64,000 nucleotides of DNA from an uncultured Euryhalocaulis sp. (GTDB lineage: Bacteria; Pseudomonadota; Alphaproteobacteria; Caulobacterales; Maricaulaceae). The number at the start of each line of letters is the position of its first letter. The stretch's first letter is position 1. The position numbers were made by a program, and so were the translations under genes. Shown in pieces: positions 10,394 to 14,437 of this stretch. The DNA lies in the NCBI GenBank assembly GCA_913055605.1, contig CAJXKJ010000001.1, positions 1-64,000 of the forward strand, written 5' to 3'. The notes below the pieces were generated by a model that saw only the letters and a list, made by a program, of their open reading frames with translations, was not told where the DNA came from and did no database searches.

Positions 10394-11170
10394 GTGGATA
10401 ACAGAGCGGATCACCAAGCGGAAGCCAAGGCGCCGCAATTGCGAAGCGCGGCCCCCGCCATCGTGCTGGCCCGGCCCCAGATGGGGGAGAATATCGGGGC
10501 CGCCGCCCGGGTGATGGCCAATTTCGGCCTGTCGGATCTGCGCATCTCCGCCCCGCGCGACGGCTGGCCGAACGAGAAGGCCGACGCGATGGCCGCCGGC
10601 GGCGTGGCGGTGGTGAAATCAGCCCGCGTCACGGGCGATTTCGAATCGGCGATCAGCGATCTGACCGTGATCTACGCGGCGACGGCGCGGACGCGGGACA
10701 TGGAAAAGCCGGTGCTGACCCCGCGCGCGGCGATGGCGCAGGCGCGCGCGGAGATCGCGCAGGGCGGGGCGCCGGGCTTCGTCTTCGGGGCGGAGGCCTC
10801 TGGCCTCACCAATGACGAGGTGGCGCTGGCCGATGCGGTGCTGAGCATTCCGGTCGACGCGGCGTGCTCCTCCCTCAACCTGGCGCAGGCGGTGGCGGTG
10901 ACGGCCTATGAATGGATGGCGGGCGACCCGGCGCCCGGCGGCGGCGAGGGGCCGGTCCCGGCGCCGCGGGACGAGCTGCTGGGCCTGATCGATCAGTTCG
11001 AAGAGGCGCTGGAGGCGAAGAATTATTTCTTCCCCGAGCACCGCGCCGCCACGATGCGGCGCAATCTGCGCGCGGCGCTGTCGCGCGGCGGGCTGACCTC
11101 GCAGGAAGTGCGCTCCCTGCGCGGGGCGCTGAAGGCGCTGACGCGCGGGGAGGGGCCGGAGGGCGGCTAG
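10394..11170 (+). CDS. trmJ: SpoU-family tRNA methyltransferase (TrmJ-like)
   Basis: A 258-residue RNA 2'-O-ribose methyltransferase with a SPOUT knot fold. It shows [20 protein letters not shown] (motif 1, with the Asn-Gly-Ala core), [20 protein letters not shown] (motif 2) and [20 protein letters not shown] (motif 3, the knot). The C-terminal helices ([19 protein letters not shown]) are typical of TrmJ, which modifies nucleotide 32 of tRNAs. The start is a GTG at 10394, because no ATG precedes motif 1. It is convergent with the M28 peptidase gene (4-base overlap). Confidence 0.88.
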
Positions 11171-12957
11171 CCCCCGTCCGCCAACTGGGCGTCGCGCAGC
11201 GAGCGGAATTCGTTGCCGTCGTACCAGTTCGGCCAGGCGTCCGAATTGGCCAGCTGCGACCCCACCTCGAACAGGATTTGGGTGTCGTCGATCATGCCGT
11301 CGAAATTCCACGTCTCCGGATCGTATTCGTCCTCGACGCCGTGATAGCGGCCGGCGCGATAGTCATCCGACGCCGCGCGCCCGGCCTCCGGCCCGCCGTC
11401 GACCAGATCCTCGCCGGCCTTCGAATACAGGGCCGGGACGCCGCGCTTGGCGAAGCTGATATGGTCGGAGCGGTAGAAGCTGCCGTTCTGGGGCTGCGGG
11501 TCGGGGCCGGTGACGCGGCCGTGCGCCTCCACGATCGGTTGCAGGATGTCCTCCAGCTCCGACGCGCCGGCGCCGATGACGATCATGTCGTTGGCCATGC
11601 CGGAGGGCATCATGGCGTCGATATTGATGTCCGCGACGATGTTCTTCAGCGGCAGGGTCGGGTTGGCGGCGAAATAGTCGGAGCCGAGCAGGCCCGACTC
11701 CTCCGCCGTCACCGCCAGGATCATCACCGAGCGGTCGGGCGGGGTCTCGCCGCGCGCGAACGCCTCGCCGATCTCCAGGATGGTGGCGACGCCCGTGGCG
11801 TTGTCCACCGCGCCGTTATAGATCGCGTCCTCGCCCGGGGCGGCGTCCGGCTCCAGCCCCAGATGGTCCCAGTGGCCGGTATAGATGATCGTCTCGTCCG
11901 GCCGCTGGGCGCCCGGGACGACGCCGCCGACATTGCGGGACTCCAGACGCTGCACGTCGCTGAGGATGTGCGCGTCCAGCGTGACGCCGTCCAGCGGCAC
12001 GGCAGTGAAGCCGGGCTGGGCCGCGGCCTCTTTCAGCGCGTCGTAATCCTGTCCGGCGGCGGCGAAGATTTCGCGCGCCTTGTCGGCGGTGATCCAGCCT
12101 TCCATGGCGGCGCGGGGGGCGTCGCTTTCCAGATAGAATTGCGGGCCGGACCAGCTGTTGCGCACGACGTCCCATCCATAAGCGGCCGGCGCGGTTTCGT
12201 GCACGATCAGGATGCTGTCCACGCCCTGGCGGCCGGCTTCCTCGTATTTATAGGTCCAGCGGCCGTAATAGGTCATGGCGTTGCCGGTGAAGAGGTCCGG
12301 GTCGCCGGTCGCGAAGCCGGGATCGTTGACCAGCACGATCACCGTCTTCCCGGCCGGATCGAAGCCGGCGTAATCGTCCCAGTCATATTCCGGGGCGACC
12401 GCGCCGTAGCCGGCGAAGATCACCTCCGACCCGTCGATGGAGATTTCCGGCTGGAGCTGGCTGCTGTTGAACACGGTCTGGTCGGGGCGGCTGAGCGGGA
12501 TCTCGCCGTCCGGACCGGTGATCGTCATGGTCGAGCCGGGCTCCAGCTCGGCGGAGACCAGCGGCACGGTCTGGAACCAGGAGCCGTCGAAGGCGGGCTC
12601 CAGCCCGATCCGGGCCATCTCGTCGGCGATCCACTGGGCGGAGGCCTCGCCCGCCGGCGTGCCGGGAGCGCGGCCCTCGAACCGGTCGTCGGCGAGGATC
12701 GCGACGCGGTCGGCGAAGTCCTGTTCGGTAATGTCGGCGGTGGAGCTTTCGAGGCGCTGTGCGTGCGCCATCTGGCTTTCGGAGAGACCGTCCGGGGTCC
12801 CGGCCTCAGCCGTTTCCGCTGGCGCGGCCGGCTCAGTGGCCAGGGCGGGTTCGGCCTCCGGCGCCGGCTGGGCGGCGCTGATTTCGGGTTCGGATTCGCT
12901 GCATGCCGCGGCGAGGGCCAAAGCCCCGGCGGCCATCATCAAAGCTCTGCTCTTCAC
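11167..12957 (-). CDS. M28-family zinc aminopeptidase lipoprotein
   Basis: A 596-residue exported metallopeptidase. The signal peptide ends LALAAAC (lipobox), followed by an Ala/Glu/Pro-rich linker. Residues 130-330 carry a protease-associated (PA) insert around FAGYGAVAPEYDWDDYAG, and the M28 catalytic domain follows with the zinc ligands in order: YTGHWDHLGL (His), GAVDNATGVATIL (Asp), LAVTAEESGLLGSDYF (catalytic Glu and Glu ligand), NIDAMM (Asp) and YRSDHISFAKRGVP (His). It probably removes N-terminal residues from peptides outside the inner membrane. Its 3' end overlaps trmJ by 4 bases. A terminator hairpin and two tiny lipoprotein genes lie just upstream. Confidence 0.92.
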   Translation of the reverse strand: MKSRALMMAAGALALAAACSESEPEISAAQPAPEAEPALATEPAAPAETAEAGTPDGLSESQMAHAQRLESSTADITEQDFADRVAILADDRFEGRAPGTPAGEASAQWIADEMARIGLEPAFDGSWFQTVPLVSAELEPGSTMTITGPDGEIPLSRPDQTVFNSSQLQPEISIDGSEVIFAGYGAVAPEYDWDDYAGFDPAGKTVIVLVNDPGFATGDPDLFTGNAMTYYGRWTYKYEEAGRQGVDSILIVHETAPAAYGWDVVRNSWSGPQFYLESDAPRAAMEGWITADKAREIFAAAGQDYDALKEAAAQPGFTAVPLDGVTLDAHILSDVQRLESRNVGGVVPGAQRPDETIIYTGHWDHLGLEPDAAPGEDAIYNGAVDNATGVATILEIGEAFARGETPPDRSVMILAVTAEESGLLGSDYFAANPTLPLKNIVADINIDAMMPSGMANDMIVIGAGASELEDILQPIVEAHGRVTGPDPQPQNGSFYRSDHISFAKRGVPALYSKAGEDLVDGGPEAGRAASDDYRAGRYHGVEDEYDPETWNFDGMIDDTQILFEVGSQLANSDAWPNWYDGNEFRSLRDAQLADGG

Positions 12958-12993
12958 ATCTCTTCCTTGCTGGATATGGAAGTAGAGGAAGGC

Positions 12994-13024
12994 GGGGAGG
13001 CCCCGTCAACCGGCGGGCCTCCCC
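12994..13024 (-). terminator. Hairpin terminator after the small lipoprotein genes
   Basis: A perfect 10-base stem, GGGGAGGCCC at 12994-13003 and GGGCCTCCCC at 13015-13024, with an 11-base loop, lies 19 bases past the stop of the second small lipoprotein. Only a weak pyrimidine run (CCTTCCTCTACTT on the minus strand) follows. It would separate the lipoprotein pair from the M28 peptidase gene. Confidence 0.55.
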
Positions 13025-13042
13025 GAATTGCATGTGCTGCGG

Positions 13043-13192
13043 TCAGTTTTCGTCGATGTCGATATCGCCGTCTTCCTCGATGGACAGCTCGCCATCGGGG
13101 GTTTCGATCTCCACCACGTCTTCTTCGCAGGCGGCCAGGCCGATCGCGCCGAGGACGCCGGCGGCGGCGAGGATTTTCGTGAAACGCGCCAT
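13043..13192 (-). CDS. Tiny acidic lipoprotein, copy 2
   Basis: A 49-residue predicted lipoprotein of unknown function. MARFTKILAAAGVLGAIG is a lipoprotein signal with lipobox GLAAC, and the mature part is only 28 residues and strongly acidic, ending EEDGDIDIDEN. GGAG sits 7 bases before the ATG. The neighbouring upstream gene is a paralogue with the same lipobox region and the same EEDGDIDIDE end. With this charge it may bind divalent cations at the membrane surface, but that is inference. The two genes are 24 bases apart and are probably co-transcribed. Confidence 0.75.
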   Translation of the reverse strand: MARFTKILAAAGVLGAIGLAACEEDVVEIETPDGELSIEEDGDIDIDEN

Positions 13193-13216
13193 GATAATCT
13201 CCTGTATTCCGCTGAC

Positions 13217-13360
13217 TTATTCGTCGATGTCGATGTCGCCGTCTTCCTCGATCTCGACCTCGGCGTCGCCCAGATCGATCTCCGCTTCGTCTTCGCAGGC
13301 GGCGAGGCCGATAGCGCCCAGAACGCCGACAGCGGCGAGAACTTTGGTCATGCGGGACAT
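13217..13360 (-). CDS. Tiny acidic lipoprotein, copy 1
   Basis: A 47-residue predicted lipoprotein. The first residues MSRMTKVLAAVGVLGAIG and the lipobox GLAAC form a lipoprotein signal; the mature 26 residues are nearly all Glu, Asp and Ile and end EEDGDIDIDE. GGAGA precedes the ATG by 6 bases. It differs from copy 2 mainly in the middle (DLGDAEVE instead of ETPDGELS), so the pair arose by tandem duplication with the signal and tail conserved. I recognise no named family. It lies downstream of the pirin gene beyond a terminator. Confidence 0.75.
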   Translation of the reverse strand: MSRMTKVLAAVGVLGAIGLAACEDEAEIDLGDAEVEIEEDGDIDIDE

Positions 13361-13457
13361 GGAATTCTCCATCTGAGGGGCCGGCGGTCCGCCGGTCCCG
13401 GAATGGGCTGAAAACCCGTCAGACGGGGCGCCGGTTCCTCCCTTCGGAAAATATTCC

Positions 13458-13492: not shown

Positions 13493-14437
13493 CTAGGATT
13501 CCGGCAGCGGGATGTGCTCGCCCTCGTCCGGGGGCAGGGTGAAGCGCCCCTCCGCCGGAAAGCCGGACGCGATCGCGGCGGACCAGTCGGCCTTCGCCGC
13601 CTCGATCTTCGCGGGGTCGGAGGCGACCAGATTCCACCAGATCGTCCGCTTGCCGAGCGGCGCCCCGCCCAGCAGCATCAGGCGCGCCGGACCGCGCGCG
13701 GTCACCTCAGCGTCCGCGCCGTCCGCCAGCACGGCCATGTTGCGGTAGGCGAAGACCTCTCCGCCGATCTCCGCCTCGCCCTCCACGACATAGACCGCGC
13801 GTTCGCCCCATTCGGCGGGCAGGGTCACGCGGGCGCCGTCCTGAAGGTCGGCCTGCAGATAGACGATGGGGGAGCAGACGCGCGCCGGTGAGGTCTCGCC
13901 GAAGGCCGATCCCGCAATCAGGATCATCCGCACGCCGTCCTGCTCGATCACCGGCATGGCGTCGGCGGGGTAGTGGTCGAAGGCGGGGTCGGTCTCCTCA
14001 TGGTGCTCCGGCAGGGCAACCCAGGACTGGATGCCGTGCAGGCGGTGGCCGGCCGCGCGCGTCGCCGGGGCGGTGCGCTCCGAATGCACGATGCCGCGCC
14101 CGGCGGTCATCCAGTTCAGCGCGCCGGGATGGATCTCGATGTCGAAGCCCAGCGAATCGCGGTGGCCGAGCCCGCCGTCGAACAGCCAGGTCAGCGTGGC
14201 CAGCCCGATATGCGGATGCGGGCGCACGTCCACGCCCTTGCCCGGCGGGAACTCGGCCGGGCCGATATGGTCGAAAAAGATGAAGGGGCCGACCATGCGC
14301 CGGCCCGCCGAGGGCAGCACCCGGCGGACGGAAAACCCTCCAAGATCATGCTCTTTCGGCGCGATCACGCGCTCCACCAGCGGGTTGGCGCTGTCGTCCC
14401 GCTGGCCGGACGAAACCTCTTCATTGTATCGGGACAT
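13493..14437 (-). CDS. Pirin family protein
   Basis: A 314-residue bicupin of the pirin family. The N-terminal cupin has the metal site motifs RPHPHIGLATLTWLFDG and GRGIVHSER, and residues 185-290 form the second cupin (VYVVEGEAEIGGEVFAYRNM). Some pirins have quercetin 2,3-dioxygenase activity and others act as redox-sensing regulators; which applies here cannot be seen. It is divergent from accA with 138 bases between, and has its own terminator, so it is probably monocistronic. Confidence 0.92.
   Translation of the reverse strand: MSRYNEEVSSGQRDDSANPLVERVIAPKEHDLGGFSVRRVLPSAGRRMVGPFIFFDHIGPAEFPPGKGVDVRPHPHIGLATLTWLFDGGLGHRDSLGFDIEIHPGALNWMTAGRGIVHSERTAPATRAAGHRLHGIQSWVALPEHHEETDPAFDHYPADAMPVIEQDGVRMILIAGSAFGETSPARVCSPIVYLQADLQDGARVTLPAEWGERAVYVVEGEAEIGGEVFAYRNMAVLADGADAEVTARGPARLMLLGGAPLGKRTIWWNLVASDPAKIEAAKADWSAAIASGFPAEGRFTLPPDEGEHIPLPES

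Follow-up and report, generated by a model that had tools for sequence, protein, structure and literature searches.

The entericidins EcnA and EcnB (PF08085) are tiny lipoproteins, 40-50 residues long, that leave a short mature peptide and are encoded by tandem genes (compare PMC7296081). According to the same paper, an alphaproteobacterial member of this family in Agrobacterium has 53 aa, of which 32 form the mature part, is vesicle-borne and surface-exposed, and is not obviously lytic, which shows that peptides of such size can act in the envelope. A second kind of small lipoprotein, the YnbE-like proteins (PF13617, Lipoprotein_19), carries an alternating, strand-like mature part. Acidic runs around an Asp-Gly pair occur in the calcium loops of EF-hands, a motif defined by a D-x-D-x-D-G loop with Glu at position 12 and by flanking helices. 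Our literature search on small or acidic lipoproteins in alphaproteobacteria or in Maricaulis (the latter by title and start of abstract) found no paper on genes of the kind presented here.

The window, by which we mean the whole 64-kb stretch of DNA analysed, contains two such genes between a gene for a pirin and a gene for an M28-family peptidase (Table 1). Gene 1 encodes MSRMTKVLAAVGVLGAIGLAACEDEAEIDLGDAEVEIEEDGDIDIDE and gene 2 encodes MARFTKILAAAGVLGAIGLAACEEDVVEIETPDGELSIEEDGDIDIDEN. Both precursors begin with basic residues, continue into a hydrophobic stretch and reach a Cys-containing lipobox at residues 19-22, i.e., they carry the elements of a predicted type II signal. The earlier note on this DNA had described adjacent genes for lipoproteins whose mature parts have fewer than 30 residues, nearly all of them acidic, and share an identical EEDGDIDIDE end. 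Frames, coordinates and size proved right, but only about half of the mature residues are acidic (15/26 and 14/28), with no Lys or Arg among the others. The string EEDGDIDIDE is indeed common to both products; copy 2, however, carries one further Asn behind it, so the string is not the exact C-terminus in both.

Table 1. Features of the tandem lipoprotein genes and of their surroundings, in order of transcription.
Feature	Position	Strand	Details
Pirin gene, upstream neighbour	13493..14437	minus	PF02678 and PF05726
Lipoprotein gene 1 (W1)	13217..13360	minus	47 aa; lipobox LAAC; mature part 26 aa, 15 acidic; ATG 13360, stop 13217
EEDGDIDIDE coding stretch, gene 1	13220..13249	minus	degenerate pattern match; only two such places in own genome
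Lipoprotein gene 2 (W2), tandem paralogue of gene 1	13043..13192	minus	49 aa; lipobox LAAC; mature part 28 aa, 14 acidic; ATG 13192, stop 13043
EEDGDIDIDE coding stretch, gene 2	13049..13078	minus	degenerate pattern match
Intergenic hairpin after gene 2, GGGGAGGCCC...GGGCCTCCCC	12958..13042	minus	RNA fold -36.5 kcal/mol over 85 nt
M28-family peptidase gene with its own lipoprotein-type signal, downstream neighbour	11167..12957	minus	PF04389, E 8.6e-43; 127/137 family genomes

A ribosome-binding site, GGAG, lies 6 bases before the ATG of each gene. For gene 1, we prefer the ATG at 13360 to the mechanically called one at 13372, because the former aligns with the start of gene 2 and has the GGAG at this distance. 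The two genes are separated by 24 bases, and their proteins are 74% identical; at the DNA level, the repeats show 77-78% identity over 75 and 89 bases. No third copy was listed when the window's own genome was searched at the DNA level. When short open reading frames were filtered for a signal, a lipobox and an acidic mature part, genes 1 and 2 were the sole passers in the 64 kb, and none passed in any of 40 dinucleotide-preserving shuffles, which is more than chance. An antisense open frame of 157 aa (12903-13376, plus strand) spans both genes. Between the two copies, substitutions number 7, 7 and 17 by codon position and thus fall mostly on third positions of the minus-strand frame; because of this pattern, the minus-strand frames are favoured over the antisense one.

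The genus-level search comprised two genomes, that of the window (G000) and one relative (G001). The relative has two homologues in the same place, the gene order being identical to that in the window (pirin, MKKYIAALAALGMLGVAACEDEAEIETPAGEVEVEEDGDVNVNEN, MRIAAPVILAVLALAACEDEETVTIETPAGTIEAEEDGDMKIEAKDPENNG, M28), and both small frames are intact; the earlier note's ground for refutation, a lack of intact homologues in related genomes, thus does not hold. Their lipoboxes read VAAC and LAAC. In an alignment of the four homologues, all insertions and deletions comprise whole codons, and the mature parts have 26-35 residues, of which 12-15 are acidic and 0-2 basic. The M28 proteins of the window and the relative are 58% identical, hardly more than the 52-57% found with other genera among the better family matches, which implies that the lipoprotein pair survived a deep split. 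Nei-Gojobori counts put dN/dS at 0.27 within either genome (Fisher P 0.002 for the pair in the window and 0.001 for that in the relative). Across species, the ratios were 0.44, 0.52, 0.58 and 0.35 (P 0.03, 0.10, 0.09 and 0.007), i.e., three of the four exceed 0.4 and two of these three are not significantly below 1; the six comparisons derive from four sequences, are not independent of each other, and include a single other species for conservation. This indicates that both genes are coding and under purifying selection of moderate constraint.

The earlier note had taken the retained end as a sign of selection on the tail and had proposed to look for the motif in relatives. Within the window, the tail is poorer in differences: in a division into tail and rest that was chosen after the data were seen, 1 of 31 nucleotide differences falls in the tail (11 codons, 33 of 141 sites; P = 0.003), and nonsynonymous differences affect 0 of 28 tail sites as against 17 of 80 sites in the rest (P = 0.005), leaving the tail without any amino-acid change. 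Synonymous differences amount to 1 at 5 tail sites and 13 at 28 sites in the rest (P = 0.37); because synonymous tail sites are so few, selection and recent gene conversion are not separable for the window tail. Across species the picture changes. Gene 1 and its counterpart in the relative agree at 6 of 11 tail residues; the corresponding figures are 10 of 19 for the signal and 9 of 14 for the middle. Each of the five tail changes is nonsynonymous. The tails of the relative are EEDGDVNVNEN and EEDGDMKIEAKDPENNG, so that EEDGD and a following alternation of hydrophobic and polar residues are kept in all four homologues while the DIDIDE end is lost. In these alignments, the tail is no better conserved between species than the rest of the protein, and its identity in the window may stem from selection or else from a recent duplication or a gene conversion within that lineage. 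Selection on the tail, as proposed in the earlier note, is therefore supported in part.

These results bear on the possibility that the two genes are orphan ORFs of recent origin, with hardly any selected function or none, whose common tail merely reflects recent duplication or gene conversion. Their occurrence in one genus, a tail that is identical within the genome and altered across species, and the small number of synonymous tail differences, too few to exclude conversion, would all be in line with this explanation. We nevertheless regard it as unlikely, as it does not account well for two intact genes in both species despite the divergence of the flanking M28 gene, for indels that are exclusively in-frame, or for the low dN/dS within each genome.

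In wider searches, the share of genomes with any match was 22/137 for the family (E up to 0.01), 30/398 for the order (E up to 0.001), 1/385 for the class and 2/398 for the phylum (E up to 1e-4 in both); these samples overlap, the larger ones being draws from bigger groups. The family is that of Maricaulis, placed by NCBI in Maricaulaceae, since loci from two of its genomes match loci of two named Maricaulis records without a difference across more than 4.5 kb (L149 with L043, L162 with L046). None of these genomes other than the two of the genus yielded a credible full-length homologue. The family search listed 22 weak matches outside the genus, and the order search 29. Ten order loci were inspected, of which two (L123 and L124) are YnbE and eight are different proteins matched mainly via their signal peptides; the remaining weak matches were judged by partial coverage and listed open frames only. 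With the mature part alone as a query, 4 of 398 order genomes matched, namely the two of the genus and two with weak matches in longer proteins, which resemble a YbjN-like protein and a NUDIX hydrolase and were attributed to chance. A small-ORF filter, run over 145 loci, retrieved short lipoproteins of three further kinds (L028, L040 and L125/L134), none with the EEDGD pattern. The last of these is another unassigned tiny acidic lipoprotein of 40 aa ending in KAADEVEDVIDEAN (L125 1477-1599, minus; L134 1501-1623, plus); the two genomes that carry it belong to a different family of the order. Among the genomes searched, the sequence matches thus place the pair in this genus only.

The M28 neighbour provided a further point of comparison. 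In 110 M28 loci (80 named and 30 unnamed, some loci counted twice), pirin was also present in at least six, a lower bound given the short flanks that were fetched: the window, the relative, L148, L059, L115 and L053. In L148, L059 and L115, M28 directly follows pirin with no small lipoprotein gene in between; L053 has a longer open frame at this position. The absence of the pair from the other pirin-M28 loci implies that this genus acquired it or that others lost it. Derivation of the pair from the signal sequence of the M28 gene was rejected, as that sequence was not among the matches listed by the DNA search of the own genome. One could also imagine that the two products are accessory peptides of the peptidase, i.e., its inhibitor, substrate or anchor, since in either genome with the pair it adjoins the M28 gene and shares its strand. 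This appears quite unlikely, however, given that the M28 gene occurs in 127 of 137 family genomes and the pair in 2, that three of the pirin-M28 loci do without it, and that a strong hairpin lies between the pair and M28 in the window. This hairpin is a possible terminator or attenuator preceding the M28 gene. A scan for consensus promoters and terminators gave no match at the locus; the hairpins were seen by RNA folding nonetheless. The relative carries a strong hairpin with TTTTC behind it (L006 1639-1702) between its two lipoprotein genes, and not after the second one as in the window; given this placement, the regulation of the two pairs may differ.

As for known families, neither gene matched Pfam at E up to 10, and the single NCBIfam match fell below its cut-off: the PG1828 family scored 16 bits, where 50 are required, over residues 4-27 of gene 1, which are mostly signal. 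The pair thus bears out the earlier remark that such small genes are easily missed. AlphaFold2, run with the two window sequences, predicted three strands for copy 2 (26-31, 34-39 and 44-48; mean pLDDT 71, pTM 0.43) and no strands for copy 1 (mean pLDDT 65, pTM 0.31). The models are short and of low confidence, and they conflict in that the three-stranded beta-meander of copy 2 is not reproduced in copy 1, and they only weakly suggest such a fold.

With the entericidins, the pair has in common its size class and tandem layout (compare PMC7296081). By analogy, one of the two lipoproteins would harm the envelope and the other would counteract it, or both would be surface lipopeptides of outer-membrane vesicles, where the vesicle-borne Agrobacterium protein described there offers a parallel. 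We consider an entericidin-like role very unlikely. Unlike entericidins matching the profile, both window genes leave PF08085 unmatched at E up to 10, while a separate ORF of the same genome, which served as a control, matches it at 5.4e-10; this ORF encodes a 41-aa entericidin-family lipoprotein (L040, around G000:C10:28387-28446; ORF 1435-1560, minus). In addition, the mature parts are acidic without basic residues, no helix is predicted for them, and the two copies are alike rather than differentiated. Least probable of all is that the products resemble YnbE in donating beta-strands, as outer-membrane lipoproteins, to an AsmA-type periplasmic bridge: the best weak matches outside the genus do belong to the YnbE family (E about 2.5e-5, model positions 4-47) and copy 2 is modelled entirely as strands past its signal, but much of the weak similarity lies in the signal peptide, the direct neighbours are pirin and M28 rather than AsmA-type genes, and PF13617 is unmatched by both genes although it recognizes strong separate YnbE proteins in the own genome (L176, around G000:C30:3014-3115; E 4.3e-17) and in the relative (1e-15). 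With an entericidin gene and a YnbE gene present elsewhere in the genome, both roles seem to be taken. EF-hands were rejected as well; the window peptides likewise have an acidic run with Asp-Gly, but Ser or Glu stands at position 1 of the loop, one homologue has lost position 12, no helix is adjacent, and no Pfam match was obtained.

The two genes are real, tandemly duplicated and, among the genomes searched, genus-restricted. With moderate confidence, we take them to encode tethered polyanionic envelope peptides that would bind cations or a basic partner. Judging from the signal sequences, the Sec pathway would export each precursor, which would then be lipidated and cleaved at its Cys22. 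This would yield peptides of 26-28 residues with a net charge of about -14 to -15, presumably anchored in an envelope membrane. Once tethered, the anionic peptide may hold divalent cations or attach to a basic partner. For this it might fold into a short beta-meander with acidic residues on one face. Taken by itself, this binding role is a tentative proposal, and the role of the pair is probably modest. A bolder version of the tethered-peptide reading, which we consider very unlikely, sees in the pair a new family of polyanionic mini-lipoproteins, specific to this genus and anchored in the membrane, that form a three-stranded sheet with a hydrophobic and an acidic face and whose copies pair, for example as a strand polymer or as a cation-holding layer of the outer membrane.

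An identical tail in tandem copies of one genome does not alone show selection on that tail. Tiny lipoprotein genes are easily overlooked by annotation, and the pair is a clear example of such genes under purifying selection. If expressed, it would add a lineage-specific family of envelope peptides.
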